DNA from: Alphaproteobacteria bacterium
GTDB lineage: Bacteria; Pseudomonadota; Alphaproteobacteria; UBA8366
Reading direction: 5' to 3'
NCBI GenBank assembly: GCA_029861675.1
Contig: JAOTYV010000071.1
Coordinates: 1 to 17,543, forward strand
Length of the DNA: 17,543 bases
The notes under the pieces were generated by a model, which made no database searches, was not told the DNA's origin, and saw only the letters and a program-made list of their open reading frames with translations. Positions 2,611 through 16,480 of the stretch are shown here, piece by piece (positions within the stretch are counted from its first letter, which is position 1; every line of letters starts with the position of its first letter). The translations under genes and the position numbers were made by a program.

Positions 2611-4164
2611 ATGGCGCAACGAACCGAAAAGAACGTTCTTTTCATTACCGCGGATCAATGGCGCGGCGATTCGTTGGGCGCCGTCGGACATCCTTGCGTC
2701 AAGACGCCGGCCCTCGATCGGCTTGCCGCCGACGGCGTGTTGTTTCGCAGGCACTATTCGCAAGGCGCACCCTGCAGCCCGAGCCGCGCCTCGCTGCTGA
2801 CCGGGCTCTACATGTTCAATCACCGGGTTGTCTATAATGGCGTGCCGCTCGATGCACGGTTCACCAACGTGGCGCTGGAAGCCCGCAAGGCGGGCTACGA
2901 CCCGGTGCTTTTTGGATACACCAGCACCGCCCCGGATCCGCGGACCCTCGCCGCGGGCGATCCGCGGCTTGAGACCTATGACGGCGTGCTACCGGGCCTG
3001 AACCAAATCGTCAATCACACCACGTCGTGGCTGAGATGGCTCAAGGGGCGGGGGTATAGCGGATGGTCGAGGCCGGCCGACGCGTATAAACCGGTTCCCG
3101 ACTACCCGGGCGCCGAAACGCGCGGAGACACCTATGCGCCGCCAGCCTATGGCGCCGAGGATAGCGACACCGCCTTCACCGCCGGCGAAACGCTGAACTG
3201 GCTCGCGGTCAATGGCGGACGCCCCTGGTTCGTCCACCTGTCGTTCAAGCGCCCGCACCCGCCCTGGGTGGCGCCGGAGCCGTATAACACCCTGTACGAC
3301 CCGGGCGATGTTCCGCCGCCGCGTCGCGCGGCATCGCCGGGCGCGGAAGCGGCGCAGCATCCTTATCTGGCCCTGATGATCGAGAACCACAGGCGCAAGC
3401 GATATTCGCTCGGCCATGAGGGCCGGGAAGCGGACATCGACGATGTTACGATCCTCCAGGCGCGGGCCACCTACTACGGGCTGATGAGCGAAGTCGATCA
3501 TCATGTCGGGCGGATCATCGACTATCTCAAGAATGCCGGACAGTACGACGACACCCTGGTTATCTTCACCTCTGACCATGGCGAACACCTCGGCGATCAT
3601 CATTTGCAGGGAAAGAGCGGATATTTCGACGAAGCATTTCACATCCCGCTCATCATCCGCGATCCGGACGGGGCGGCGAATGGGATGCGCGGGCGCGAGG
3701 TCGCCGCGTTTACCGAGCATGTCGACGTCATGCCGACCATCCTGGAATGGCTCGACCGCGACGTTCCGGCACAATGCGACGGCAGCCCGCTTCTTCCCTT
3801 CGTCCGCGGCGATACGCCGAAAAACTGGCGGCGCGAGGCGCATTGGGAGTTCGATTGGCGGCATGTGCCCGAGCTTTCGGGTGAGAATGGCCTCGAACTC
3901 CAACCCGATCAATGCCATCTCGCCGCAATCCGCGACGACGCGTACAAGTATGTACACTTTCCAGCCTTGCCGCCGTTGCTCTTTGACCTCAAAGGCGACC
4001 CGGACCAGTTCGTCAACCGCGCGGGAGACCCGGACTACGCCGGCGTTCGTCTCGCGTTCACCGAGAAAATGTTGTCGTGGCGCATGACCCACGCGGACCG
4101 CACCCTTGCTAATACGTTCCTCAATACCGGCGGTGTCCGTGAATGGCGGGGGCCGCGAACCTGA
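2611..4164 (+). CDS. Sulfatase-fold phosphonate monoester hydrolase / phosphodiesterase (PMH-like)
   Basis: This 517-aa alkaline-phosphatase-superfamily enzyme most resembles Rhizobium/Burkholderia phosphonate monoester hydrolases, which split phosphonate monoesters and phosphodiesters. I recognise shared blocks such as RASLLTGLY-NHR-V-N-VPLD, GYDP-L-GYT-T-PDPRT and RPHPP near residue 215. The metal and nucleophile set is in place: D15-Q16, Cys55 in CSPSR (the motif oxidised to formylglycine in this superfamily), R59, D322-H323 in FTSDHGEHLGDHH, and K335. Length matches PMH (about 514 aa). There is no signal peptide, so it should be cytoplasmic and need imported substrate. AGGAGG at 2597-2602 sets the start. 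It stands alone between a divergent family 5 transporter operon and a convergent lysR. Arylsulfatase side activity is common in this family. The PMH call is fairly firm; the natural substrate is unknown. Confidence 0.85.
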   Translation: MAQRTEKNVLFITADQWRGDSLGAVGHPCVKTPALDRLAADGVLFRRHYSQGAPCSPSRASLLTGLYMFNHRVVYNGVPLDARFTNVALEARKAGYDPVLFGYTSTAPDPRTLAAGDPRLETYDGVLPGLNQIVNHTTSWLRWLKGRGYSGWSRPADAYKPVPDYPGAETRGDTYAPPAYGAEDSDTAFTAGETLNWLAVNGGRPWFVHLSFKRPHPPWVAPEPYNTLYDPGDVPPPRRAASPGAEAAQHPYLALMIENHRRKRYSLGHEGREADIDDVTILQARATYYGLMSEVDHHVGRIIDYLKNAGQYDDTLVIFTSDHGEHLGDHHLQGKSGYFDEAFHIPLIIRDPDGAANGMRGREVAAFTEHVDVMPTILEWLDRDVPAQCDGSPLLPFVRGDTPKNWRREAHWEFDWRHVPELSGENGLELQPDQCHLAAIRDDAYKYVHFPALPPLLFDLKGDPDQFVNRAGDPDYAGVRLAFTEKMLSWRMTHADRTLANTFLNTGGVREWRGPRT

Positions 4165-4222: not shown

Positions 4223-5107
4223 TCAAGCCGCCGAGTCGAACGCTTTCGCGCCGCGTTCGGCCAAGTCGATAAACCCGGCGATCAGCGGCCGGTTCCGGCG
4301 CTCCGCGAGGCAGACGACATGGGCATAGGTGTACATCTCGGCCGCCGGGATGTGAAAGGCGCGCAAGTCCGGATGTTCGGCGTATTCATTGCGTGAAATG
4401 GCGCCGATGCCGATGCCGCGGATGATCGCTTCCCGAATCGCCTCGCGGCTGTTGATTTCCATCACCGGGCGGATCGATACGTCGGCCTTGCGCAGCGCGC
4501 GCTCGAACGCCTGCCGGGTGGTCGATTCCGGCGGGCGCAACACGGTTGCCTGATCGGCAAGGTGGGCGAGGGTGATCGAATCTCGCGCGGCGAGGGGATG
4601 GCTGCGGTTGACGATGATCAGCACCGGATCGCGGTTGTAGAACACGCAATGGAACCGGTCGTCGTCGGGGGCAAATCCGGTGACTCCGACATCGGTCTCG
4701 AAGTTGATCAGCCGCTTGAAGACCTCGGTTTCACTGCCCAGGGTTACCGAGTACCGCACCCCGGCATGATCCAACCGGAACGCTTGTAACAGCTCCATCA
4801 CATCGTAGGGGCCGACCGCGCCCAGCCGCAGCTCGCCGGCCTGTTGCGCGCGCGCGGACCGCAGATACGCGATCGCCTCCTCTTCATGCCGGTATAGCCC
4901 CTGGGTAATCGTAAAAAGCGTGCGCCCCACCGGGGTCAGTTCGATCGTACGGCCGCGGCGGTGGAACAGCTCCACGCCGAAGGTTTCCTCGAGCAGATGC
5001 ACATGTGTCGATACCGTCGGCTGCCCGATACTGAGCGCGCGCGACGCGGCGGTGAAACCACCCTCGACGGCAACGGCGTGAAACGCTTTGAGTGGTTTTT
5101 CATACAT
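4223..5107 (-). CDS. LysR-family regulator, aminoethylphosphonate-catabolism type (LysR1)
   Basis: This 294-aa LysR transcription factor has an N-terminal winged helix-turn-helix (about residues 4-62, with GGFTAASRALSIGQPTVSTH) and a periplasmic-binding-like effector domain from about residue 90. The linker and effector-domain start (TITQGL, EEAIAYLRSA, GELRLGAVGP) are typical of the LysR group found beside phosphonate catabolism genes. It is clearly paralogous to the LysR at 15605-16480. It is divergent from phnA across 130 bp, the usual layout for a LysR activator controlling the neighbouring operon. No clear ribosome site precedes the ATG, which is also the edge of a palindrome at 5105-5121, so autoregulation and weak or leaderless translation are plausible. 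The effector is unknown, perhaps a phosphonate or pathway aldehyde. Confidence 0.9.
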   Translation of the reverse strand: MYEKPLKAFHAVAVEGGFTAASRALSIGQPTVSTHVHLLEETFGVELFHRRGRTIELTPVGRTLFTITQGLYRHEEEAIAYLRSARAQQAGELRLGAVGPYDVMELLQAFRLDHAGVRYSVTLGSETEVFKRLINFETDVGVTGFAPDDDRFHCVFYNRDPVLIIVNRSHPLAARDSITLAHLADQATVLRPPESTTRQAFERALRKADVSIRPVMEINSREAIREAIIRGIGIGAISRNEYAEHPDLRAFHIPAAEMYTYAHVVCLAERRNRPLIAGFIDLAERGAKAFDSAA

Positions 5108-5237: not shown

Positions 5238-6509
5238 ATGAGCAAGCCAGCGGTTGAGCTGAACGGAATCGAGTATCAGTATCCGTCTCAACCTATTGTC
5301 GTCGTGTGCATCGACGGCGGCGACCCCGCCTATATCAAGAGCGGGCTGCGCGACGGCATCATCCCGAATATCGAACGCTTCATGCAAAACGGTTTCCATA
5401 CCGTCGCGGAGGGCACGGTACCGAGCTTCACCTGCCCCAACAACATGTCGATCGTGACCGGCAAGCCGCCCGCGGTGCACGGCATATCCGGCAATTTCTA
5501 CCTCGATCCGGCGACCGGCGAGGCGGTGGTGATGACCGGGCCCGAATTGTTGCGCACCCAGTCGGTCATGGCGTCGTTCTCGCAACACGGCGCGAAGGTG
5601 GTCTCCATCACCGCCAAGGACAAGCTGCGTCAGCAACTGGCGAAAAACCTGGACCTTAGCGGCGGCTCGGTCAGCCTTTCCTCGCAATATGCCGATCGTT
5701 GCACGATGGCGGAGAACGGTATCGAGGATGTGCTGGATTTCGTCGGTCAGCCGCTACCCGACATGTATTCGCAGGAATTGTCGCTGTTCGTGCTCGATGC
5801 CGGCATCAAGCTGCTGGAGACGCGGCGGCCCGATATTCTCTACCTCTCGCTCACCGATTTCGTGCAGCACGCGCATGCGCCCGGCACGCCCGAAGCGAAT
5901 GATTTCTACATCAACATGGATCAACGCTTCGGCCGCCTCGCCGAGCTTGGCGCGATCGTCGCGCTGACCGCGGACCACGGCATGAACGACAAGTCGAAAG
6001 AAGACGGCACGCCGAATGTCATCTGGTTGCAGGATGTCCTGGACGACCGGTTCGGCACAGGCAGCAGCACGGTGATCTGCCCGATTACGGACGCCTTCGT
6101 CGGCCATCACGGCGCGCTCGGCGGTTTTGTCCGGGTCTATTGCAAAAACGGGCTCGATCCGCGCGATGCCATTGCCGCCATCAAGGATATAGCGGGCATC
6201 GAAGGCGCTTACGCGAAATCCGAAACCGTCGAAAGGTTCGAGCTGCCCGCCGACCGCGAGGGCGATGTGGCGGTGATCAGCGACGCCGGCACCTGCATCG
6301 GCGCGCGCGAGCAGGATCATGATCTGTCCGCGCTCAAGGGACACCGCCTGCGGACTCATGGCGGCGTTTCCGAAGCGAAGGTGCCGATCATCATCAGCCA
6401 TCCGGTGGACGATCGCTACGCCGCCCGGGCCGAGGCCGGCGTGCTCAAGAGTTACGAAGTGTTCGACTTCGCGATCAACGGCACCGCTGCCGGAGCGGCC
6501 GGCGGATGA
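5238..6509 (+). CDS. phnA: Phosphonoacetate hydrolase
   Basis: This 423-aa alkaline-phosphatase-superfamily enzyme cleaves the C-P bond of phosphonoacetate to acetate and phosphate, using two metal ions and a threonine nucleophile. The full set known from the Sinorhizobium meliloti enzyme is present with near-constant offset: D26 in CIDGGD, nucleophile T65 in VPSFTCPNN, D207 and H211 in LTDFVQHAHAPG, D246-H247 in TADHGMN, and H374 in RTHGG. The block MSIVTGKPPAVHGISGNFY is also diagnostic. There is no signal peptide, so it is cytoplasmic. The start has AAGGGAG 5 nt upstream (5226-5232). It is the first gene of a seven-gene unit, divergent from lysR1, and its stop overlaps the next start (ATGA). 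The name follows the hydrolase literature; the unrelated E. coli phnA gene is not meant. Identity is very secure. Confidence 0.96.
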   Translation: MSKPAVELNGIEYQYPSQPIVVVCIDGGDPAYIKSGLRDGIIPNIERFMQNGFHTVAEGTVPSFTCPNNMSIVTGKPPAVHGISGNFYLDPATGEAVVMTGPELLRTQSVMASFSQHGAKVVSITAKDKLRQQLAKNLDLSGGSVSLSSQYADRCTMAENGIEDVLDFVGQPLPDMYSQELSLFVLDAGIKLLETRRPDILYLSLTDFVQHAHAPGTPEANDFYINMDQRFGRLAELGAIVALTADHGMNDKSKEDGTPNVIWLQDVLDDRFGTGSSTVICPITDAFVGHHGALGGFVRVYCKNGLDPRDAIAAIKDIAGIEGAYAKSETVERFELPADREGDVAVISDAGTCIGAREQDHDLSALKGHRLRTHGGVSEAKVPIIISHPVDDRYAARAEAGVLKSYEVFDFAINGTAAGAAGG

Positions 6510-7600
6510 GCCGCACTGCCAAGGCCGCCGTCTATAATGCGCCGAACACGCCGTTCGTCCTGAAGGAGTATCCGCTCCGGCCGGTCTTGCCGCGCGAGGC
6601 GCTTGTCCGCGTCACCATGTCGACCATTTGCCGGTCGGACATTCACTCCTATCAGGGCCACCGGCCGAATCCGTGCCCCGGCATCCTGGGGCATGAAATC
6701 ATCGGCGTGATCGAAGAACTGGGCAATGAGATCGAGCGGGATATGCGGGGCGATCCGCTGGGGACCGGCGACCGGGTCACCTGGACGGAATATTTTTTCG
6801 ACGGCGAGTGTCACTACCGCGACGTGCACGACATGCCGCAGAAATGCAAGGGCGTCCGCAAATACGGCCATGACCTGGCCGAGGAAGATCCGCATTTTCT
6901 CGGCGGGTTCGCCGAGTATTGCTACATCGTGCCCGGCACTGGAATCCTGAAACTGCCGGATGACCTGAGCGACGAGGAGGCGACACCGTTGAACTGCGGC
7001 GTCGCCACGATGGTCTCCGTCACCGAAGCGACACAGATATCCCTGGGCGACACGGTCGTGATTCAGGGCCTCGGCTTGCTCGGCCTCTACGGCTGTGCGA
7101 TGGCCAAGGCGCGTGGCGCGCGGCTGGTGATCGGCCTCGATGCGGTGCCGGACCGTTTGGAGATCGCGAAAAAATTCGGCGCCGACGTGACCATGAATGT
7201 CGCCGAGATGGACCAAGATGCGCTGATCGAGGCCATTCGCGGGCTGTGCCCGCCGGATGGCGCCGACGCGGTGATCGAGGTCTGCGGCGTGCCCGACGTG
7301 GTCGCCGCCGGGCTGCGCATGCTGCGGGTCGGCGGGCGGTATACGCTTGCCGGTTTGGTCAACCCGGACGCGTATATCAACATCGACGCCAATATTCTGG
7401 TGCGCCAATGGATCACCTTGCGCGGCATCCACAATTACCATCCGCGGCACCTCATTCAGGCGCTCGACTTCGTCATGGCGAACCGCGACCGCTTTCCGTT
7501 CAAGGATATCGTCGATTCGAAATTCGCCCTCGCCGATCTGGACGAGGCGTTCAAACGTGCCGCCGATCGCAGCGTGCTGCGCGCCGCAATCGTGCCGTAG
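6506..7600 (+). CDS. Zinc-type alcohol dehydrogenase, phosphonate-associated
   Basis: This 364-aa medium-chain dehydrogenase has a GroES-like N-terminal half and a Rossmann half with GLGLLG (about residues 192-197). Catalytic zinc ligands are visible: C42 in ICRSD, H63-E64 in GHE, and C164 in PLNCGVAT. It resembles the medium-chain dehydrogenases repeatedly seen beside phosphonate catabolism genes, including the HNYHPRHL segment near the C-terminus. Its start overlaps the phnA stop by 4 bp (ATGA at 6506-6509), so the two are probably translationally coupled. By context it may oxidise 2-hydroxyethylphosphonate, or a related alcohol, to phosphonoacetaldehyde with NAD(P). That substrate is inference. 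The usual four-cysteine structural zinc site is largely lost: the equivalent positions are G100, H103, D106 and C114. Confidence 0.9.
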   Translation: MSRTAKAAVYNAPNTPFVLKEYPLRPVLPREALVRVTMSTICRSDIHSYQGHRPNPCPGILGHEIIGVIEELGNEIERDMRGDPLGTGDRVTWTEYFFDGECHYRDVHDMPQKCKGVRKYGHDLAEEDPHFLGGFAEYCYIVPGTGILKLPDDLSDEEATPLNCGVATMVSVTEATQISLGDTVVIQGLGLLGLYGCAMAKARGARLVIGLDAVPDRLEIAKKFGADVTMNVAEMDQDALIEAIRGLCPPDGADAVIEVCGVPDVVAAGLRMLRVGGRYTLAGLVNPDAYINIDANILVRQWITLRGIHNYHPRHLIQALDFVMANRDRFPFKDIVDSKFALADLDEAFKRAADRSVLRAAIVP

Positions 7601-7632
7601 CGGCAGCCAACCAATTTGGGAGAAGAGATCAC

Positions 7633-9087
7633 ATGTCTGCCACACCCGATCTGAAGTTTTCGCCGAAGGGCTTGTATATCGGCGGCGAATGGCTGCCTGC
7701 CAAGGACAATGGCACGATCGAGTCGTTCAACCCGTCGAACGGGGATCGCCTTGGCGAAGTTCCGAAGGCGACCGAAGAAGACGTCGATCATGCGGTCAAG
7801 ACCGCCCATAATGCGTTTCAGGATTGGCGCCGCGTTCCGATCAAGGAGCGCGCCCGCTGCCTCGAGCTCTTCGCCGATAAACTTGCGGAGCATCGGGAAG
7901 AACTCGGCATGATGGACTGCGTCGATTCCGGCAATGCGCTGAGCGGCATGACCGGCGACGTCGACTGGACCGTCGACACGCTGCGCTATTTCGCCGGATT
8001 GATCACCGAAATCAAGGGCGAGACATCGTCCTTCGGCCCGCGGCACATGAATTTCACGCGGCGCCAGCCTTACGGCGTGGTGGCCAAGATCAACCCGTTC
8101 AACCACCCATTCCGGTTCTGCGCCGAGAAGGCGGCCGCGCCGCTGGCCGCCGGCAACACCGTCGTCATCAAGGGGCCGGAACAGGCGCCGCTCTCGAGCC
8201 TGCGCCTGGCCGAACTGTGCGACGGCATCTTTCCGCCGGGCGTCGTCAATGTCGTCACCGGCGACGCGGTTGCGGGGTCCGCAATGGTGCGCCATCCGCT
8301 GGTGCACCGCATCGGTTTCGTCGGCTCCGTCGCCACCGGCCGTATTATCGCGCGCGAAGCCGCCGATGGGCTGAAGAATGTGAGCCTCGAACTGGGCGGC
8401 AAGAACCCGATTATCATCTTCCCGGACGCGGATCCGGCGAAGGCGGCGCAGGCGGCGGTCAAGGGCATGAACATGAACCGCCAGGGTCAATCCTGCAGTT
8501 CGACGTCGCGCGTCTTCGTGCATAAATCGCTCCACGGACCTGTCCTGGAGGCGCTGGCCGCCGAGGCGGAAGCCCTGCCGATCGGCCTTCCCTGGGAGGA
8601 AGGCAAGGAAATGGGTCCGATCGTTTCTCAGGAGCAATACGACCGGGTCACCGGCTACATTGAGTCGGGCAAGTCCGAAGGCGCCGAGCTGATCACCGGC
8701 GGCGGCGCCCCGTCGGACCCCGCCCTGAAAGACGGCTTCTTCGTCGCGCCGACCGTATTCAATAATGTGAAGCCCGACATGCGGATCGCCCGCGAGGAGA
8801 TCTTCGGGCCGGTCATGTCGGTCATGCCGTGGGATGACTACGAAGATATGATCGGGCGCGCCAACGCGCTGGAATACGGCCTGACCGCGGCGATTGTGAC
8901 CAACGATCTCGACAAGGCGATGGAGACCGCCGAGCGGATCGAGGCCGGTTACGTTTGGATCAACACCAACGGGCGCTATATCGGCGCGCCCTATGGCGGC
9001 TGGAAGAGCAGCGGCATCGGCCAGGAGGAATGTTTCGACGAATTGCTGAGCTATACGCAGATCAAGAACATCAATATGCGCTGGTAA
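7633..9087 (+). CDS. NAD(P)-dependent aldehyde dehydrogenase, likely phosphonoacetaldehyde dehydrogenase
   Basis: This 484-aa protein is a complete member of the aldehyde dehydrogenase superfamily, close in style to betaine and semialdehyde dehydrogenases. Key residues are the Asn in KINPFNHPF, the cofactor-binding Lys in VVIKGPEQ, general base E253 in LELGGKNP and nucleophile C288 in GQSCSSTSR. The ATG at 7633 follows GGGAGAAGAG; the frame is open further upstream but no family sequence lies there. It sits 32 nt after the alcohol dehydrogenase and in the same unit as phosphonoacetate hydrolase. In S. meliloti the analogous enzyme, PhnY, oxidises phosphonoacetaldehyde to phosphonoacetate, the PhnA substrate. 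Family is certain. The substrate rests on context, and this protein may not belong to the same subfamily as PhnY. Confidence 0.93.
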   Translation: MSATPDLKFSPKGLYIGGEWLPAKDNGTIESFNPSNGDRLGEVPKATEEDVDHAVKTAHNAFQDWRRVPIKERARCLELFADKLAEHREELGMMDCVDSGNALSGMTGDVDWTVDTLRYFAGLITEIKGETSSFGPRHMNFTRRQPYGVVAKINPFNHPFRFCAEKAAAPLAAGNTVVIKGPEQAPLSSLRLAELCDGIFPPGVVNVVTGDAVAGSAMVRHPLVHRIGFVGSVATGRIIAREAADGLKNVSLELGGKNPIIIFPDADPAKAAQAAVKGMNMNRQGQSCSSTSRVFVHKSLHGPVLEALAAEAEALPIGLPWEEGKEMGPIVSQEQYDRVTGYIESGKSEGAELITGGGAPSDPALKDGFFVAPTVFNNVKPDMRIAREEIFGPVMSVMPWDDYEDMIGRANALEYGLTAAIVTNDLDKAMETAERIEAGYVWINTNGRYIGAPYGGWKSSGIGQEECFDELLSYTQIKNINMRW

Positions 9088-9157
9088 GGCGTGGGGGGAT
9101 CGCAGTAAGGCGGAACTGAAAAATCAAACCTGCAAGACAAAGGGAGGATCTCAAATA

Positions 9158-10111
9158 ATGACACATAATCGAGTATCTCGGTCAGTCGGAAATGGCCGGA
9201 CGAAACGCGCCGTCGGCAGCATGGCCCTAGCGGCCGGATTGCTGATGGGGACGGCCACGGTCGCCGCGTCCGCGGGTAAGTGCGAAAATCCCAAGGCGCT
9301 CACCTTCGCGATGGTGCCGACCGAGGAGACGGTCGCCGAACTCAAGCTCTACAAGCCGGTCACGGACCGCATGGCGAAGCTGACGGGCAAGAAAATCCAA
9401 TTCTTCATGCCGACCTCTTACGCCGCGGTGGTGGAAGGGTTGCTCGGTGGGTTTGTCGACGTCGCGGTGCTTGGACCGTATACCTATGTCATTGCGAATT
9501 CCAAGGACCCGAGTGTCGAGGTGTTCGCGACATACGCTAAACGGCCCGGCCATCTGCAGGAAGAAGGCCCCGGTTACAAGGGCGTGCTGGTTTCCAAGAA
9601 GGGAAGCAAGTTCAAGACCATCAAAGATTTGAAGGGATCGATTGTCGGCCTTACCGACCCCGGCAGCACGTCGGGCAATCTGGTGCCGCGCGTGGTTTTC
9701 TCGAAGGTGATCAATACGGACATCGATAACTACTTCAAAAAAGTCGTCTATACCGGCAGTCACGAACTCTCCACCGTGGCGGTTCACCAAGGCAAGGTCG
9801 ATGCCGCCTTCGTCGCATCGCATCGTTTCGACAATGTGGTGAACAAGGGAGAGGTCAAACTGGCGGATTTCAATGTCCTTTGGAAATCCCCGGCGATCCC
9901 GCAGGATCCCTTCGTCTATCGCAACACGCTGTGCAAGGATCTGAAGGCGAAAATCGCAGACACGTTTCTGGGCCTGAAAGGGCAGCCGGAAGCAAAGGCC
10001 TTCCTCAAAAACGTGAAGTCCAACACCTTCGTGCGTATGTCTTCCAAGGATTACGACGTCATCCGTGATCTGAAGAAGGCCAAGGACGCCCGCAAAAAGA
10101 AAAAGAAGTAA
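9158..10111 (+). CDS. phnD: Phosphonate ABC transporter substrate-binding protein
   Basis: This 317-aa periplasmic protein delivers phosphonates or related oxyanions to the PhnCE importer. A long Sec-type signal runs to about residue 40 (basic N-region, core MALAAGLLMGTATV, cleavage near ASA-G). PhnD landmarks follow: FAMVPTEETVAEL, PTSYAAVVEGL, the anion-binding loop DPGSTSGNLVP (S170-T171-S172), TGSHELSTVAV, and WKSPAIPQDPFVYR near the C-terminal third, matching the E. coli PhnD segment WKSPLIPGDPIVWR. The C-terminus is unusually basic (DARKKKKK). The start is set by GGGAGG at 9142-9147. It lies 70 nt after the aldehyde dehydrogenase. Phosphonate rather than phosphite or phosphate uptake is favoured by the neighbours. 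Confidence 0.94.
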   Translation: MTHNRVSRSVGNGRTKRAVGSMALAAGLLMGTATVAASAGKCENPKALTFAMVPTEETVAELKLYKPVTDRMAKLTGKKIQFFMPTSYAAVVEGLLGGFVDVAVLGPYTYVIANSKDPSVEVFATYAKRPGHLQEEGPGYKGVLVSKKGSKFKTIKDLKGSIVGLTDPGSTSGNLVPRVVFSKVINTDIDNYFKKVVYTGSHELSTVAVHQGKVDAAFVASHRFDNVVNKGEVKLADFNVLWKSPAIPQDPFVYRNTLCKDLKAKIADTFLGLKGQPEAKAFLKNVKSNTFVRMSSKDYDVIRDLKKAKDARKKKKK

Positions 10112-10134
10112 CCGGCGTCAGGTCGGCCGCGCAA

Positions 10135-10162
10135 GGGGCGGGACAATCCACTGTTTCGCCCC
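10135..10162 (+). promoter_or_regulatory. Intercistronic hairpin between phnD and phnC
   Basis: GGGGCGGGACA (10135-10145) and TGTTTCGCCCC (10152-10162) form an 11-bp RNA stem, two pairs being G-U, around the 6-nt loop ATCCAC. No T-run follows, so it is not a standard terminator. It begins 24 nt after the phnD stop and ends 27 nt before phnC, which itself lacks a clear ribosome site. It probably sets binding-protein excess by mRNA stabilisation or partial termination (inference). Confidence 0.6.
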
Positions 10163-10189
10163 GCCGCGGACGATCGCGCTGTCACGGCC

Positions 10190-10942
10190 ATGTCTATTCT
10201 AACCGTTACCGATCTCACCGCGCGCTATAGCCGGACCGGGCCCGAGATTCTTCAGGGAGTCAGTTTCGGCGTCGACGCGGAGGATTTTTTCGCGATCATC
10301 GGTCCCAGCGGCGCCGGGAAGTCAACGCTGATCCGGTGCATCAACCGCCTGGTGGAACCGACCGGCGGCAGCATCCGGCTCTATGACACCGAGGTGCTGA
10401 CGCTGTCGCAAGGCGATCTGCGCAAGCTGCGGCGAAATATCGGCATGATATTTCAGGAATTCAATCTGGTCGACCGGATGTCGGTGATGGACAATGTGCT
10501 GTCCGGCCGGCTCGGTTATGTCGGCAACCTGCGTAGCTTGTTCCGATTGTTCTCCAAGGATGACATCACGCGCGCGTTGCAAGTTCTCGATCGTGTCGGC
10601 TTGATCGACCATGTGGACAAGCGGGCCGATGAATTGAGTGGCGGCCAACGGCAACGGGTCGGCATCGCCCGGGCGTTGATGCAGGATCCAAAACTGTTGC
10701 TGCTCGATGAGCCGACCTCCAGCCTGGATCCGAAGATCTCGCGCGAGGTCATGGCGCTGATCAAGGAAATCGCCACCGAATTCGGGGTGCCGGTCCTGTG
10801 CAATATCCACGACGTTCAGCTCGCGCTGGAGTTCTGCAACAAGATCATCGGATTGCAGGATGGCGTCAAGATGTTCGATGGCCCGACCGACAGCATCGAT
10901 CAGGATAAGCTGAACGAAATTTATGCCATGGAGGTGCTGTGA
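10190..10942 (+). CDS. phnC: Phosphonate ABC transporter ATP-binding protein
   Basis: This 250-aa ABC ATPase powers the phosphonate importer on the cytoplasmic face. Walker A is GPSGAGKST (residues 38-46), the signature is LSGGQ (149-153), and Walker B is LLLLDEP with D173-E174, followed by SSLDP. The PhnC-type insert [16 protein letters not shown] lies between the Q-loop and the signature. The ATG at 10190 gives the normal PhnC length, but I see no good ribosome site; the hairpin at 10135-10162 lies just upstream. The stop shares its last base with the ATG of a 10-codon mini-ORF (TGATG at 10940-10944), and GGAGGT at 10930-10935 lies inside the end of phnC. Confidence 0.95.
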
Positions 10943-10974
10943 TGACGCGCCCATGGCGTCCGGCAAGGCGATGA
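10942..10974 (+). other. Mini-ORF of 10 codons bridging phnC and phnE1
   Basis: An ATG overlapping the phnC stop (TGATG) opens the reading frame [10 protein letters not shown], whose TGA (10972-10974) overlaps the ATG at 10971-10973 in the phnE1 frame (ATGA). GGAGGT at 10930-10935 is 6 nt from the mini-ORF start, ideal for it and too far (17 or 35 nt) from either in-frame phnE1 start. It may be a coupling minicistron that hands ribosomes to phnE1. It could also be a chance by-product of compact gene packing. Confidence 0.35.
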
Positions 10975-11792
10975 CCGGCGCGGCGGTCTACGGCGCCCTG
11001 CTCAACCGGATCGAGGCCGAGCGAAAGCGCAGCCGAATAATTCGATCCGTTTTGTATCTTGGCTTGCTCGGGCTGGTCGTCTGGAGCGTCAAGGTGACGG
11101 TCGTCGAGGATACGGATTGGGCGCGGATGGGATCCTTCGGGGCGATCCTGAAATCCGTCGACCGGTTTATCGGGTTTGATTTTTCCCTGCTGCCGAACCT
11201 AATCGGGCCGACCATCGAAACCCTGATGATCGCGTGCCTCGGCACGATGCTCGGCGTGATCATCTGCATACCGGTGATCTGGTTCGGCGCGCTCAACATT
11301 ACGCCCTTCAAACCTGTCACCTATCCGATCGCGCGCCTCCTGATGACGCTGAGCCGGTCGATTCACGAGATCGTCTGGGCCCTGTTCTTCGTTGCCGCGG
11401 TCGGCCTCGGTGCGCTTGCCGGTGTGCTCGCCATCGCCATGCGTTCGGTCGGTTTCATCGCCAAGATTTCCGCCGAAGCGATCGAGGACATCGACCCCGC
11501 GCCGGTCGAGGCGATTCGCGCGGTCGGCGGCAACGGATTTCAAGTGCTGATCTATGCGATCGTGCCGCAGATTTTGCCGGTGGTCATCGGCGTGATCATC
11601 TTCGAATGGGAAATCAATATCCGACGCTCTGCCATTCTCGGATTGGTCGGCGCCGGCGGGCTTGGCCTGATGTTTTTCCGACAGATGAACACCTTCAACT
11701 TTCCCGGCGTGACGACGGTAATCTTCGCAATTTTGTGCATCATCCTGGTGGGCGAGTTTCTCTCGCATTACGGCCGCAAGTCGGTGATTTGA
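10971..11792 (+). CDS. phnE: Phosphonate ABC transporter permease (first PhnE)
   Basis: This inner-membrane subunit has about 273 aa from the ATG at 10971, or 279 aa from the ATG at 10953. Hydrophobic segments include VLYLGLLGLVVWSV, IETLMIACLGTMLGVIICIP, ALFFVAAVGLGALAGVL, QILPVVIGVIIF and VIFAILCIILVGEF. The EAA loop that contacts PhnC reads EDIDPAPVEAIRAVG. RSIHEIVWAL and FEWEINIRRSAILGLVGAGG are characteristic of PhnE. I prefer the 10971 start because it overlaps the stop of the upstream mini-ORF, but 10953 cannot be excluded, and neither has a well-spaced ribosome site. The stop shares a base with the start of another mini-ORF. It pairs with the second PhnE as a heterodimeric permease. 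Confidence 0.93.
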   Translation: MTGAAVYGALLNRIEAERKRSRIIRSVLYLGLLGLVVWSVKVTVVEDTDWARMGSFGAILKSVDRFIGFDFSLLPNLIGPTIETLMIACLGTMLGVIICIPVIWFGALNITPFKPVTYPIARLLMTLSRSIHEIVWALFFVAAVGLGALAGVLAIAMRSVGFIAKISAEAIEDIDPAPVEAIRAVGGNGFQVLIYAIVPQILPVVIGVIIFEWEINIRRSAILGLVGAGGLGLMFFRQMNTFNFPGVTTVIFAILCIILVGEFLSHYGRKSVI

Positions 11793-11821
11793 TGGGGGGC
11801 GGCGGAAGCGCAGTTCGATGA
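11792..11821 (+). other. Mini-ORF of 9 codons bridging phnE1 and phnE2
   Basis: An ATG overlapping the phnE1 stop (TGATG at 11790-11794) opens the reading frame MGGGGSAVR, whose TGA (11819-11821) overlaps the phnE2 ATG at 11818-11820. This is the same stop/start/stop/start geometry as at 10942-10974. No strong ribosome site precedes it, and phnE2 has its own GGAAG at 11804-11808, so independent function is less certain here. Confidence 0.3.
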
Positions 11822-12663
11822 CGATGGGCAATAGCGATCATATCGGCGCGGTCGCGGTCGCACCGCAATGGCGACGCTTCAGGTTTCCGGCGTCGCTGAT
11901 TCGCTATGGCGTGGTGCTCGGCGTTTTTCTCTTGCTCGGATATTCGATCGAGTATCTGGAAATCCCGCTCGAGCGGCTGTTTCCGATGTTCGGAAAGATC
12001 GGCCATCTCGTCACCGACCGGTATTACCCGGCGGATATCGACTATATCCTCGACGCCACCTATCTGGGGTCGGTCGTGGACACCATCCAGATGGCGTATC
12101 TCAGCGCGCTGTTTGGATTGCTGATCAGCGTGCCGCTCGGCTGGTTCGCGAGCTACAACATGACGCCGCACCGGCGCTTCGTTTATCCGCTGGCGCGGTT
12201 GGTCACCATGCTTGGACGCGCCGTGCACGAAATGATCTGGACGATCCTATTCGTCAGCATCCTCGGCTTCGGCATGTTGCCCGGCGTCTTGGCCTTGACC
12301 GTGTTTTGCACCGGTTTCGCCGCAAAACTGTTTGCGGAGGAAATCGAGGCGATCGATATGGGGCCGGTGGAAGCGATCAAGGCGACCGGCGCCAGTTTGT
12401 TTCAGGTATTCGTCTATGGCGTGATCCCGCAAGTCCGCGTCGCCTTCACCGGCATTGCGATTTATACCTGGGATGTTGCGTTTCGCGCCGCCACCGTCGT
12501 GGGCTTCTTTGGTGCGGGGGGTATGGGGTGGTACCTCAAGCGCAATGTGCAGCAGATCGAGACGGAACGGGTGGCCGCGATCCTTCTGTCGATCGTTGTG
12601 CTGGTGCTGCTGTCCGAAGTCGTTTCCGCCTGGGCGCGGGCCAAAGTCGCCAAGAGCAAATAA
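11818..12663 (+). CDS. phnE: Phosphonate ABC transporter permease (second PhnE)
   Basis: This 281-aa membrane protein is homologous to, but clearly diverged from, the upstream PhnE. Segments include YGVVLGVFLLLGYSI near the N-terminus, DTIQMAYLSALFGLLISVPLG, LGRAVHEMIWTILFVSILGFG, and a hydrophobic C-terminal segment ILLSIVVLVLLSEVV. The EAA loop reads EEIEAIDMGPVEAIKATGAS, followed by FVYGVIPQV. The region that reads INIRRSAILGLVGAGG in PhnE1 is DVAFRAATVVGFFGAGG here. The ATG at 11818 has GGAAG 9 nt upstream; an alternative ATG lies two codons later. Two distinct PhnE genes after phnC are common in alphaproteobacterial phosphonate importers and imply a heterodimer. It is the last gene of the plus-strand unit. 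Confidence 0.94.
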   Translation: MTMGNSDHIGAVAVAPQWRRFRFPASLIRYGVVLGVFLLLGYSIEYLEIPLERLFPMFGKIGHLVTDRYYPADIDYILDATYLGSVVDTIQMAYLSALFGLLISVPLGWFASYNMTPHRRFVYPLARLVTMLGRAVHEMIWTILFVSILGFGMLPGVLALTVFCTGFAAKLFAEEIEAIDMGPVEAIKATGASLFQVFVYGVIPQVRVAFTGIAIYTWDVAFRAATVVGFFGAGGMGWYLKRNVQQIETERVAAILLSIVVLVLLSEVVSAWARAKVAKSK

Positions 12664-12795: not shown

Positions 12796-14904
12796 CTAAA
12801 GGGAAACCAGCACGGGCCCTCCGATTGCCGTCGGCAGCGAAGCTTCCCCGGCTTGTTCCTTTTTGGACCAGGGAACCTCGGTAATTTCGCCGGTTGCGAG
12901 ATCGGCGATTTTTGCCTGGCCCTCTTGGCCGGCCGCCTCAATCGGCAGAGTCACAGTCCGGCCGTTTGCGGTCCCATGCGGCAAGAGCAGGGCGTGTGAG
13001 GCCGAGGCATCTGAAAAGCCGATAATCGTCATGGAATCGAGCGGATGGCAGTCGCCGAGATTGAGAGCGCCGTACATCTCGTTCAGCGCGGCATTCAGAT
13101 TCCTGACCACGTGACTGCCGAGCCTCGGATTGTAGAGGCGATCGACGACGCCGTTTCGAACGAAATAGCCCCGGTCGATATCGGCAAAAGTATCGATGAA
13201 GGAGCGCACATTCGGTTGCGTGGCGGACGCGACCATTGCCTCCGCGATCCGGTTGGCATGCAGCGCATCGTCGAGCGACTCAGCCGCCGGATTGGACGTG
13301 GCCAATCGGACGTGGATGGATGCTTTGGTATCGAGGTCCGCCGCCAATTGGCCGGCCGCCCGTATTTCGGCCGACAGGGGCTGCTCATTCAGCACCCGAA
13401 ACACGAAGCCGTCGATCAGCCCGGCCTTGGCGCTGTCGCCGAGAATATCGCGAATGATTGCGCGCTCGCCGGGAACGAACCCGTGATTGATGACGTGGTA
13501 ATATTTGTGAGCGTCGGTCTCCAGATCTTCTTTCGACCGGAGCTTGGTCAGGAATACCGAAATCTCCGCCTCGTCCTTGATGGCTTGGATGCCGCGGCAA
13601 ATGTCATCGAGATCGTCCCAAGCGAAACCGACCTCCCAGGCTTCGATCAGGTCGCAATGATCGATCAGGGTGCGCCGTTGCTTCGGATCCGGCAGCTCGA
13701 ACGAAAACACCGTGAATGCGTGGCCCATGCTCTTGAGATCGCGCATTCTCTGGCGGATTTCCGGGTTGACGAGGTCATGCAGCGGAATGCGCAAGCGACG
13801 GACGCCCATCTCCCATAAAGAGAGGAGGGGATAGTCGTTGCGGACGGATTTGCGCGCGAATTCGTCCAGACCGCCGCTCGGCGGTATCTCGACCAACTCC
13901 GTCCAGGGGTGGCGGAAATCGAATCCCACGGTGGCGCGGCGGGTCACACGCGGATGAACGAGCGGCAGGCGCCGAGGGGTGGGCGGGCTCGGTCCATCGG
14001 GTGCGAGGGTGCGTCCGAAGGTCCGCACGGGGTGGCACACATGGCCGTTCGCGTGAACGTGCACGACGAAATAACCGAGTTTCGGCGCATCGTTCCGGCC
14101 GGCCTCGGGCCCGGGCCCGACGCGGAACAACTCGCTGTAATCCTGGCGCACGAACGCGGTGGACGGCAGAAGATAACAGTGGGTATCGCCGTGTAAATTG
14201 TACCAGAAATTGTGGACGTGCCCGGCAAACAGCGCTTCCGCCTGGTATTTCTCCAGGAGGTCCAGCACCCATGTTCGCCCCGGCTCGCCGATATTGTCGT
14301 AATGCTCCGCCTCGTCCGGGGCGGTGAGATAGGGCGGATAGTGGATATTGACGAAAAGCCGCTTTCCGGCGTTCGCCGCAAGATCCTGTTCCAGCCACGC
14401 GCGCTGCGCTTTTTCCGAGGCGAGGCCGGAGTTGATGATCTGGGCATTGATCACCACGAAATGGCAGTCGCCATGGTCGAAGGCATAGTAATGATCGCCG
14501 AAATGCTTTTCCCACAGGGTCAGAAAATCGTCGCAGACGACGCCCGCCGGGCCCCATTTTATCGGCTTGTCGCCGACATCATGGTTGCCGGGCACCAAAT
14601 ATTGCGGGCAGTTGAGCGCGGCGGTTTGCTCGTGGAACCGGTCGGCCGCATCCGCATAAATCGGCATCACCGGCACCGGATGCACGAGGTCGCCCAGATG
14701 GATCACGAAATCCGGCGCAACGGCGTTGATTTCGTTGATCACATATCGCATGCGCGCGTTGGCCAACAGGTTGACTTCAAACGGTGCCATCGATTCCGAT
14801 TCATTCTGATTCAGATGCGTATCGGTGTAGACCACCATCGTGAACAGACGTTCGCCCAGTTCATCCGCCGTCTCTGCGTCAATCGGTCTTTCGCCCTGGG
14901 TCAC
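12796..14904 (-). CDS. Calcineurin-type metallophosphoesterase with large unrecognised C-terminal region
   Basis: The 702-aa protein begins with a complete two-metal phosphoesterase domain (about residues 20-290): D28-x-H30, G71-D72 in HLGDLVH, G106-N107-H108-D109, H188 in NIHYPP, and G228-H229-x-H231. Residues about 320-620 carry alternating helix and strand segments such as PLLSLWEMGVRRLRIPLHDL that look barrel-like. The last 75 residues look like a small beta-domain. I do not recognise this C-terminal half. There is no signal peptide, so it is probably cytoplasmic. The start is GTG at 14902-14904 with AGAGGA 9 nt upstream. It lies 21 nt downstream of the decayed sulfatase remnant on the same strand and is convergent with phnE2. 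By context it may hydrolyse organophosphate mono- or diesters; cyclic nucleotide or sugar-phosphate substrates are equally possible. Confidence 0.88.
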   Translation of the reverse strand: MTQGERPIDAETADELGERLFTMVVYTDTHLNQNESESMAPFEVNLLANARMRYVINEINAVAPDFVIHLGDLVHPVPVMPIYADAADRFHEQTAALNCPQYLVPGNHDVGDKPIKWGPAGVVCDDFLTLWEKHFGDHYYAFDHGDCHFVVINAQIINSGLASEKAQRAWLEQDLAANAGKRLFVNIHYPPYLTAPDEAEHYDNIGEPGRTWVLDLLEKYQAEALFAGHVHNFWYNLHGDTHCYLLPSTAFVRQDYSELFRVGPGPEAGRNDAPKLGYFVVHVHANGHVCHPVRTFGRTLAPDGPSPPTPRRLPLVHPRVTRRATVGFDFRHPWTELVEIPPSGGLDEFARKSVRNDYPLLSLWEMGVRRLRIPLHDLVNPEIRQRMRDLKSMGHAFTVFSFELPDPKQRRTLIDHCDLIEAWEVGFAWDDLDDICRGIQAIKDEAEISVFLTKLRSKEDLETDAHKYYHVINHGFVPGERAIIRDILGDSAKAGLIDGFVFRVLNEQPLSAEIRAAGQLAADLDTKASIHVRLATSNPAAESLDDALHANRIAEAMVASATQPNVRSFIDTFADIDRGYFVRNGVVDRLYNPRLGSHVVRNLNAALNEMYGALNLGDCHPLDSMTIIGFSDASASHALLLPHGTANGRTVTLPIEAAGQEGQAKIADLATGEITEVPWSKKEQAGEASLPTAIGGPVLVSL

Positions 14905-14925: not shown

Positions 14926-15390
14926 TTATCCCGACCGGTCATACGGGTTCTCGACCAATGCCTGTAACTTGCCGCGATCGTCGAAATCAATGCCGAGCGC
15001 GTCGTAATAGTGTTCCTTCGGACGGATGTCATCGCCGATCTGCGCCATGTGCCGCCGCATCTCGTCCTCCAGGTCTTTTTTCAGCCCTTTGAGGGAGGTG
15101 TCGTCGATTCGATTGACCAGTTGATAGGGATCTTCCTGGTTGTCGTATAGCAACCACGGCTCGTCGATCGTTCGCACATAGGTGTAGCGCGCCGTCCGCA
15201 CGCCACGATATTCCATGCGACGCCCCTTGAAATCCGGGACCTGATCATGGCCGCGCGGATCGCCGATGCTGAATGGACAGGGGTTCATCAAAAATACGGA
15301 CTCGGGTGCATCCGCCCGGTCGCCCTGGATAAAGGGCGACAGGTCGACGCCTTCCACGGTATCGGGTGAGGTAAACCCGTCCAGGCCGGC
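14926..15390 (-). pseudogene. C-terminal remnant of a sulfatase-family gene
   Basis: From about AGLDGFTSPDTVEGVDLSPF onward, the minus-strand frame encodes roughly 155 residues matching the C-terminal part of sulfatases, including GVRTARYTYVRT and WLLYDNQEDPYQLVNRIDD, ending at TAA (14926-14928). The whole N-terminal two thirds, with the metal site and the CxPxR nucleophile motif, is absent, so it cannot be an active hydrolase. The frame stays open upstream to 15492, but those residues are an out-of-frame reading of a phnE fragment. It is a different sulfatase subgroup from the PMH-like enzyme at 2611. It precedes the metallophosphoesterase by 21 nt and may survive as a transcribed leader for it. 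Confidence 0.8.
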
Positions 15391-15485
15391 TTCACCTGCG
15401 GAAAGATTCCGTACACGAATGTCTTGATGGGGCCGGCCCCGGTGGCCCGGATGGCCTCTATGGGATCCATCTCGATTGCCTCCAC
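15381..15485 (-). pseudogene. phnE: Fragment of a phnE-type permease gene fused to the sulfatase remnant
   Basis: In a different minus-strand frame, 35 codons read VEAIEMDPIEAIRATGAG, then PIKTFVYGIFPQVKPAW. This is the EAA loop and following segment of PhnE (compare IEAIDMGPVEAIKATGAS and FVYGVIPQV of the second PhnE). The match starts abruptly near 15485 and stops near 15381, exactly where the sulfatase homology begins in the other frame. Both ends of the permease gene are missing. The fragment is nearer to the second PhnE than the first but too diverged to be a recent copy of it. Homology is clear despite the short length. Confidence 0.75.
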
Positions 15486-15559
15486 CTGACAAACCCGCTT
15501 GATCCTAACGTCTTATTGTTCTTCGTTTAGGATACCCCAAAGGATGACAGGATTGAATG

Positions 15560-15607
15560 CATAGAGCTAATATTGAATTTCTATGAATCACATAGCGAAA
15601 TCCTATG
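15560..15607. promoter_or_regulatory. Cluster of CTATG/CATAG half-sites at the lysR2 promoter
   Basis: Four copies of CTATG or its complement lie at 15560-15564, 15581-15585, 15591-15595 and 15603-15607. The middle pair forms a perfect palindrome, CTATG-AATCA-CATAG, containing a T-N11-A LysR pattern (T15582 to A15594). The last copy includes the lysR2 start codon. The array should be the autoregulatory site of LysR2, and could also control the minus-strand unit to the left (inference). Confidence 0.6.
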
Positions 15608-16480
15608 TATTTCACGCAGCTTCGGTCGTTTCAGGCAGTCGCGCTCGAGGGAAGTTTTACCGGCGCCGCGGAGCGCCTCAACCTCAGTCAGCCGACGATT
15701 ACGCAGCAGGTCGGTGACCTCGAGGGTGTCTTCGACGTCGAGCTGTTTCATCGACAGGGACGGCGGGTCGAACTCAGCGAGGTGGGGAAATCGCTGCTGA
15801 CCATTACAGAGCGCATCTTTACGACGAACGAAGAGGCGATTGAGCTGCTGGAGGCGGCAAGCGGCAAGGGCACCGGTCATCTTCGAATCAGTGCCGTCGG
15901 TCCGCTTGACGTGATTCCCATCATCTCGCCGATTTCCGACTCCCATCCGGGTGTGAAAATATCACTGACGATTTGCAATTCGGAGGAGGCGCACAAATCG
16001 CTTCTGGATTTTCGCGCTGACGTCGCCATGCTTGCCTCGACGCAGATGGACCCCCGGCTTCACTACGTGGATTTTGCGTCGCGGCCGCTCGTTCTCTACG
16101 TCAACAAGCAACACCGCTGGGCAAATCGCAAACGCGTCAATTTGAAGGATCTGCAGGGCCAAAGGATGATCATTCGGGAATCCGGATCACAAACCCGCCT
16201 GATCTTCGAGAAAGCCTGCGCCAAGGCCAATATCGCACCGGGACAAAGGATCGAGATCAACAATCGGGATGCGTTTCGCGAGGCGGTGGCGCAGGGGCTC
16301 GGCATCGGCGTCATTGGCGATCGCGGCCTCGCACCCGATAGCCGCCTTCATCGAATTCCGCTTGGCGACGCCGGCATTCGGATGTATCGGCAACTCGCCT
16401 GCTTGAAGGAGCGGAAGGACGCGCGCCTGATAAAGGCGTTTCTCGATACCGGACAGGCGATGCTCGACCGTATACGGTGA
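15605..16480 (+). CDS. LysR-family regulator, aminoethylphosphonate-catabolism type (LysR2)
   Basis: This 291-aa LysR protein has a helix-turn-helix at about residues 3-60 (GSFTGAAERLNLSQPTITQQ) and an effector domain from about residue 90 (GHLRISAVGPLDVIP). It parallels LysR1 throughout: VELFHR-GR--EL--VG, TIT, EEAI-LL/YL, AVGP-DV, INNRDAFREAV against INSREAIREAI, and GIGI near residue 235. The ATG at 15605 lies within a CTATG half-site and lacks a clear ribosome site, as in LysR1. A class III PLP enzyme follows 76 nt downstream on the same strand and is its likely target or operon partner. On the left it faces the minus-strand scar and metallophosphoesterase. Confidence 0.92.
   Translation: MYFTQLRSFQAVALEGSFTGAAERLNLSQPTITQQVGDLEGVFDVELFHRQGRRVELSEVGKSLLTITERIFTTNEEAIELLEAASGKGTGHLRISAVGPLDVIPIISPISDSHPGVKISLTICNSEEAHKSLLDFRADVAMLASTQMDPRLHYVDFASRPLVLYVNKQHRWANRKRVNLKDLQGQRMIIRESGSQTRLIFEKACAKANIAPGQRIEINNRDAFREAVAQGLGIGVIGDRGLAPDSRLHRIPLGDAGIRMYRQLACLKERKDARLIKAFLDTGQAMLDRIR

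Follow-up and report, generated by a model that had tools for sequence, protein, structure and literature searches.

In the PhnWAY route, phosphonoacetaldehyde is converted to phosphonoacetate, which is then cleaved to acetate and phosphate, according to excerpts of a review of phosphonate degradation (PMC10574752). Here, we examined a related gene set in a 17,543-nucleotide stretch of an alphaproteobacterial contig (JAOTYV010000071.1), the whole of which is called the window below. In it, phnA, an alcohol dehydrogenase (ADH) gene, an aldehyde dehydrogenase (ALDH) gene, phnD, phnC, and two phnE genes form a tight one-strand unit at 5238–12663, and we propose that this unit is sufficient by itself for the hydrolytic breakdown of 2-hydroxyethylphosphonate (HEP), a common natural phosphonate, a reading that we hold at a probability of about 0.72. 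By this route, PhnDCEE would import the phosphonate, its cargo being predicted; ADH would oxidize HEP to phosphonoacetaldehyde, with predicted substrate, direction, and cofactor; the ALDH, which resembles betaine-aldehyde dehydrogenase (BADH), would convert phosphonoacetaldehyde to phosphonoacetate in place of PhnY, again with predicted substrate and cofactor; and PhnA would release acetate and phosphate, as expected from the known PhnA family. The last two chemical steps would thus be the same as those of PhnWAY in Sinorhizobium meliloti, with PhnA at equivalog level, whereas entry is by the transaminase PhnW in PhnWAY and by ADH in the unit, and the ALDH belongs to a subfamily other than that of PhnY.

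The gene order phnA-ADH-ALDH-phnD-phnC-phnE-phnE and the 4-bp overlap (ATGA) of phnA and ADH, both described in an earlier sequence-only reading of this DNA, were confirmed by the open reading frames (ORFs) and their coordinates. All on the plus strand, phnA (5238–6509) and ADH (6506–7600) are followed after 32 bp by ALDH (7633–9087), after a further 70 bp by phnD (9158–10111), and after 78 bp by phnC (10190–10942), which overlaps the first phnE (10923–11792) by 20 bp; the second phnE (11818–12663) follows after 25 bp. The ALDH start was set at 7633, as a longer ORF starting at 7246 would overlap ADH. PhnA scored 541.8 bits against TIGR02335 (cut-off 407.55), and its best solved relative was the phosphonoacetate hydrolase 3szy, which we take to be the S. 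meliloti enzyme, with 397 bits over the whole length. The PhnA residues D26, T65, D207, H211, D246, H247, and H374 are identical to the aligned 3szy residues, where they presumably have metal-binding and nucleophile-type roles, and all seven are at least 97% conserved across 50 sequences, that of the window included. The predicted identity of the window PhnA is therefore secure, given its equivalog-level score and full-length similarity to 3szy. As for the transporter, the phosphonate-binding protein PhnD just missed the equivalog model TIGR03431 (251.2 bits; cut-off 261.1) and passed the subfamily model TIGR01098 (222.4; 112.05), the ATPase PhnC passed TIGR02315 (307.1; 266.1), and the two PhnE permeases passed TIGR01097 with 239.8 and 228.8 bits, respectively (cut-off 216.7).

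A LysR-type regulator gene (4223–5107, minus strand) diverges from phnA, and several of the 80 related loci introduced below carry a homologue of it (45–56%) on the minus strand, upstream of either phnA-ADH or a run from phnD to ADH. It is likely to be the regulator of the seven-gene unit. A scan for promoters and terminators gave counts near those of shuffled sequences. The sequence-only reading had also seen neither PhnX nor C-P lyase in the window. For PhnX this was borne out by tblastn, which gave no match to PhnX or PhnW in the 17.5 kb at 1e-3 and for which the sole match to a PhnY query was the ALDH itself (32%); for C-P lyase it stood for the ten window proteins scanned, none of which was a C-P lyase part, with no PhnJ model search of the window made. 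As only 17.5 kb of sequence surrounds the unit, these absences are stated for the window alone.

To place the unit among relatives, 12 ADH sequences were aligned and used to obtain 121 encoding stretches in genome contigs, the best 80 of which are the related loci (L001–L080, with L042 and L074 from the same genome). phnA was found within 500 bp upstream of ADH in 59 of these 80 loci, and in 58/74 once loci with less than 700 bp upstream were excluded, indicating that the gene order is not due to chance. A window-type ALDH, defined by at least 50% identity, was found within 500 bp downstream of ADH in 40 of the 75 loci with sufficient sequence on that side. Flanks of 700 bp or more on each side of ADH were available for 69 loci, which comprised 34 phnA-ADH-ALDH triplets, 22 phnA-ADH pairs without this ALDH, 12 loci with neither neighbour, and one with ALDH only (L014). 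The conserved triplet for which the sequence-only reading had called for a search in other genomes is thus present in about half of the comparable loci; a further triplet (L159) stands outside the counts. The ALDH frame of one triplet (L002) has just 102 amino acids, and two of the 12 loci with neither neighbour (L048 and L049) contain both phnA and ALDH some kilobases off.

The ALDH of the triplets appeared to be exchanged for PhnY in the other phnA-ADH loci. In 13 of the 22 phnA-ADH loci without window-type ALDH, tblastn located PhnY in the fetched stretch, and in eight of the remaining nine it was above cut-off elsewhere in the genome, making 21/22 in all with L033 as the exception. All 10 PhnY-like ALDHs scanned (nine of the 13, plus that of L068) passed TIGR03250, with 819–887 bits against a cut-off of 635.65. 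By contrast, PhnY was in the locus in none of the 34 triplets (Fisher 2.6e-7 for the contrast by locus and 3.3e-6 by genome, not corrected for kinship). The triplets span alphaproteobacteria and Burkholderiales/Betaproteobacteria (L042, L070, L074, L075, and L078), a PhnY-type locus occurs in an Acetobacteraceae metagenome-assembled genome (L066), and each ALDH type is represented in both alpha- and betaproteobacteria, so that the swap is not a contrast between two clades. These comparisons are most simply read as two ALDH subfamilies performing the conversion of phosphonoacetaldehyde to phosphonoacetate before PhnA. The occupation of one step by two subfamilies would point to phosphonoacetaldehyde as the intermediate and to HEP as the likely alcohol. 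PhnW was present in one of the 34 triplet loci (L036).

The window ALDH was rejected as PhnY, with 248.5 bits against the TIGR03250 cut-off of 635.65. Its best family was betaine-aldehyde dehydrogenase (TIGR01804), with 449.7 bits against a cut-off of 668.6. From these model scores, it is classed as BADH-like, in an ALDH subfamily other than PhnY. H158 (in an FNHP motif) and R448 were present in 36/36 full-length window-type ALDHs, and the aligned His and Arg in 11/11 PhnY sequences. In a control with 27 other ALDHs from four genomes, H158 was found in 0/27 and R448 in 3/27; the control drew on 31 proteins from 37 loci, 4 of which were window-type, with 11 of 41 rows, lacking a locus and including PhnY of G047, left out. 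In the alignment made for this control, the C-terminal Arg of PhnY is shifted by one column relative to R448, although its spacing from the P-F/Y-G-G motif that comes next is equal in the window-type ALDH and PhnY. The His of FNHP, the C-terminal Arg, and an Arg before the catalytic Cys are residues that we assume to bind the phosphonate in PhnY. The H158/R448 pattern supports phosphonate binding by the window-type ALDH, short of proof. The predicted ALDH step to phosphonoacetate in the sequence-only reading fits the comparative data, although the enzyme is not PhnY.

These data also bear on the possibility that the substrates of ADH and ALDH are not C2 phosphonates, as would be the case for an alcohol released by PehA-like cleavage of a phosphonate ester, or for another hydroxyalkylphosphonate. 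The nearness of the ALDH to betaine-aldehyde dehydrogenases, the ester hydrolases that flank the unit, and the retention of ADH in one genome (G012) without recognized C-P cleavage genes would all suit such a role. We nevertheless consider it unlikely, because PhnY takes the place of the window-type ALDH in all but one of the loci or genomes having phnA-ADH without it, and because the two enzymes have in common H158 and R448, the former residue being absent from every control ALDH.

The proposed entry enzyme, ADH, is a zinc-type (MDR) protein with the Pfam domains ADH_N and ADH_zinc_N. Its best family was TIGR03366, HpnZ, named as a "putative phosphonate catabolism associated alcohol dehydrogenase," with 302.9 bits, which did not reach the cut-off of 328.1; the next family scored 128. 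It is about 40% identical to members above the cut-off, and ADH is placed as a sister group of HpnZ. The association with phosphonate catabolism expressed in the family name is present, phnA being adjacent to ADH in 59/80 loci as described above and a phnD-like gene occurring in 51/80. Across 62 aligned ADH sequences, conservation is at least 97% for C42, R43, H47, R53, H63, E64, and C164; two of these, R43 and R53, lie close to the zinc-ligand positions, as might be expected for an enzyme acting on an anionic substrate. An AlphaFold model of ADH was not used as evidence, as it was built with 12 close sequences and had a mean predicted confidence (pLDDT) of 63, with values below 50 in the zinc-ligand region 40–63.

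One of three loci with HpnZ-like ADHs was consistent with an oxidation yielding phosphonoacetaldehyde. Two ADHs above the HpnZ cut-off came from a search of 274 genomes of a single class, and a third match, partial and below the cut-off with 268 bits, came from the same taxonomic order. One of those above the cut-off, in L154, is a distant relative (41% identity) and lies in a phnX-ALDH-ADH run; phosphonoacetaldehyde is the substrate of PhnX, as stated in excerpts of two sources (PMC10574752, PMC8154272). A phylum-wide HpnZ search found members in G044 only, the centre itself (1/398 genomes), which says little on distribution, as five candidates were scored per genome. Among 24 plasmid records, there was no close relative of ADH (all below 60% identity), and two records were found for HpnZ proper. 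The divergent ADH loci L156–L158, which had no phnA or phnX match, were set aside as other ADHs.

To see which other phosphonate routes accompany ADH, PhnW, PhnX, and PhnJ were searched for in the genomes of L001–L050 (50 of the 80 loci) and were above cut-off in 32, 5, and 6 of the 50, respectively. This set includes 29 triplet genomes, nine of which were without PhnW, PhnX, PhnJ, and PhnY above cut-off, namely, those of L002, L003, L005, L010, L011, L024, L032, L041, and L043, or eight if L002 with its short ALDH, which also has a PhnX-like fragment with stops and below cut-off, is dropped. Missing data are unlikely for L041 and L043, which are on chromosome-sized sequences (5.7 and 3.6 Mb, respectively), and for L005, which lies on a 3.4-Mb contig. 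In these nine genomes, ADH is, from gene content, the sole recognized phosphonoacetaldehyde source, feeders such as PbfA not having been searched for. Six further loci (L016, L017, L020, L023, L026, and L040) have the order LysR-phnD-C-E-E-ADH without phnA or a window-type ALDH following, and L053 resembles them, ending inside ADH. With ADH as the only enzyme gene recognized behind the transporter, these loci argue for an imported substrate of ADH.

The same results are relevant to a reductive role, in which ADH would convert phosphonoacetaldehyde to HEP as an overflow or biosynthetic branch. Such a role would fit the position of ADH between phnA and phnW in nine loci (L060–L062, L064, L065, L073, L077, L079, and L080), and excerpts of one report suggest it for phpC in some aminoethylphosphonate operons (PMC9381506). 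It is quite unlikely here, because the 9/29 triplet genomes without PhnW above cut-off would lack that enzyme to supply phosphonoacetaldehyde for reduction, and because in the six loci just described ADH is the only recognized enzyme gene behind a phosphonate transporter. As a separate observation, phnY was found in seven of the nine loci with the phnA-ADH-phnW order.

Where phnA does not adjoin ADH, which is the case for 21 loci, 14 genomes were tested (L007, L014, L031, L047, L048, L049, and L057 being left out), and PhnA was above cut-off in 11 of these. PhnY adjoins PhnA in nine of the 11; of the other two, L084, where the contig breaks off, shows no PhnY, and L091 represents the phnA on the contig of L030 itself. 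One genome (G011, with L022) had no PhnA above cut-off and had PhnX, PhnW, and PhnJ.

Several observations weigh against HEP oxidation by the unit. PhnY is also present in 11/33 triplet genomes. The Arg before the catalytic Cys of PhnY is Ser in 36/36 window-type ALDHs, and a second alignment puts the C-terminal Arg of PhnY one column from R448. ADH and all nine relatives scanned fall below the HpnZ cut-off (the relatives with 266–302 bits), and of the three loci with HpnZ-like ADHs, one (L154) has the link to phnX, the other two (L155 and L167, the latter with its ADH match split over two frames) having shared outer neighbours without phnX. PhnW lies within about 3 kb of the phnA-phnY pair in eight of the nine genomes with such pairs (the ninth, G007, was not searched for PhnW), which marks these as aminoethylphosphonate operons, in which co-occurrence could be general; the ADH product could feed those operons. 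Finally, two genomes, G012 (L037), with an ADH at 71%, and G004 (L023, 2.3 Mb), were without PhnA, PhnW, PhnX, PhnJ, and PhnY above cut-off. Taken together, the chain from alcohol to aldehyde to acid to acetate and phosphate, as the sequence-only reading had drawn it, is supported by the PhnY swap, by the genomes in which the triplet is the sole recognized route, and by the phnX neighbour in L154, and it is weakened by the failure of the ALDH against the PhnY model. We regard ADH as a probable HEP dehydrogenase, a function predicted from gene context and family.

Another source of phosphonoacetaldehyde could be encoded at the window's end, where a HemL-like class III pyridoxal phosphate (PLP) enzyme gene (16557–17543, plus strand) is cut off behind a second LysR gene (15605–16480). 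This enzyme is possibly a further feeder acting on some aminophosphonate, and it could be argued that phosphonoacetaldehyde arises mainly in this way, with ADH ancillary. Relatives of the enzyme at E 1e-120 or better were found in 8/49 genomes, three of them in clusters with phnX or phnA (L044, L036, and L169 of G011), which lends this some support. That it should be the main source is very unlikely, as the phosphonate link holds in just those three of the eight, the gene stands apart from the unit, downstream of a second LysR gene, and the enzyme is absent at the same threshold from 41/49 genomes that keep ADH.

The HemL-like gene of G011 directly follows phnX, and the five other genomes show no phosphonate link. 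That locus (L169) is a dense cluster with a phnS/T/U-like transporter (by eye), phnX, the HemL-like enzyme, a LysR gene, a second class III PLP enzyme, and phnW, and it also contains an 816-amino-acid oxidoreductase-like gene (by eye) with an N-terminal nucleotide-binding motif. Elsewhere, a D-2-hydroxyacid-dehydrogenase-type gene lies about 2.1–2.4 kb before ADH in Burkholderiales-type phnA-ADH loci (L067, positions 6785–7810, with relatives in L051, L052, L054, and L056, only that of L067 having been scanned); we take it to belong to the same broad family as the racemase PbfF (pfam02826). A TIGR03338-type regulator was confirmed by model in L068 only.

The sequence-only reading had treated the unit in isolation, and although its seven genes were confirmed, this passed over the ester-hydrolase and transport genes among which it is embedded. 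Upstream at 2611–4164 (plus strand) is a gene of the phosphonate monoester hydrolase/sulfatase family, the PehA-like gene, with matches to the solved proteins 4uph (524 bits), 2w8s (488), and 2vqr (479). Two enzymes named phosphonate monoester hydrolase, 2w8s and 4upk, are among its four best solved relatives, and 2vqr, listed as a putative sulfatase, is presumably the phosphonate monoester hydrolase of Rhizobium leguminosarum. The protein scored 616 bits against NF045661, the PehA equivalog, the cut-off of which (900) was not reached, and it has a CSPSR motif (C-x-P-x-R) at residue 55, which we assume to be of the formylglycine type. Beyond it on the minus strand are genes for an ATP-binding cassette substrate-binding protein (859–2436) and a permease cut by the window end (2–769), both called Dpp-type by eye and 80% and 88% identical, respectively, to L022 homologues. 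Downstream of the unit, also on the minus strand, are a calcineurin-like metallophosphoesterase gene (12796–14904; 702 amino acids; PF00149, 52.7 bits) and a truncated gene for the C-terminal fragment of a sulfatase-type hydrolase (14926–15492), which is 58.5% identical over 164 amino acids to the L034 hydrolase.

Similar genes accompany ADH in other loci. L034 and L027 have a sulfatase-type hydrolase 34 bp upstream of ADH and, in the same locus, a homologue (44–47%) of the window metallophosphoesterase. L022 has Dpp-type genes, ADH, an alkaline phosphatase (AP)-superfamily-like hydrolase (labelled by eye, with no NCBIfam match), and a metallophosphoesterase gene ending 19 bp upstream of ADH. 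Dpp-type genes and a PehA-like gene occur together in L042, L045, L056, L069, and L075. Over the 80 loci, Dpp-type genes were found in 14, PehA/sulfatase-type genes in 7, and phosphodiesterase-type genes in 5, these being raw counts without a chance control. In marine organic matter, HEP is present as esters, according to part of one report (PMC9381506), and in excerpts of their paper, Sosa and co-workers propose that alkaline phosphatase-like enzymes cleave HEP esters and also draw attention to a phosphonate monoester hydrolase of their isolates (PMC5649143). The ester hydrolases flanking the unit thus suggest HEP esters as a possible natural source, and HEP esters as the natural substrate of the region are an attractive but unproven idea. 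Tentatively, the region as a whole could be an ester-to-phosphate system, in which Dpp-type or PhnDCEE transporters import HEP or its esters, enzymes of the phosphonate monoester hydrolase, metallophosphoesterase, and sulfatase types free HEP, and the HEP dehydrogenase with its recruited ALDH feeds PhnA; we regard this wider scheme as possible and rather doubtful. If true, it would be a C-P-lyase-free and ethylene-free HEP route, in which phosphonate monoester hydrolases would have a natural function.

If the HEP route proposed for the unit is correct, HEP phosphorus and carbon would reach bacteria without C-P lyase and without ethylene, and surveys that count only C-P lyase, PhnW, PhnX, and PhnY genes could miss it. 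It would also give a testable function to HpnZ and its sister group, which are annotated without a reaction, and provide a case of two ALDH subfamilies at the same step. In the open literature searched, outside which most subscription papers lie, we found no HEP dehydrogenase acting in catabolism, nor any reaction for TIGR03366, and a term search of the phosphonate-degradation review, as far as its text was available (PMC10574752), returned no "HEP," "hydroxyethyl," or "alcohol dehydrogenase."

Compared with described systems, the window ADH has HpnZ as its best family and the same association with phosphonate genes, but it lies below the cut-off of that family, the name of which carries no reaction. 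The PehA-like protein resembles the phosphonate monoester hydrolase 2w8s and also 2vqr along almost its entire length, with C-x-P-x-R kept, but it is below the PehA equivalog cut-off, and its role on HEP esters is proposed from gene context. PbfA, PbfB-D, and PbfF follow the same logic as the unit, bringing other phosphonates in at phosphonoacetaldehyde, but their substrates are amino- or N-methylaminoethylphosphonates, whereas the proposed substrate here is HEP. For PbfF, HEP oxidation is raised only as a less likely option in excerpts of its description (PMC12366243), and PbfF is a pfam02826 enzyme, unlike the zinc MDR enzyme of the window. C-P lyase breakdown has the same substrate and likewise frees the phosphorus, but C-P lyase cultures give off ethylene from HEP, as reported in part of one study (PMC5649143), whereas the proposed route would yield acetate instead. 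The phosphonoacetate-hydrolase route itself is known from PhnWAY, and the novelty proposed here is the entry of HEP by ADH together with the recruited ALDH.

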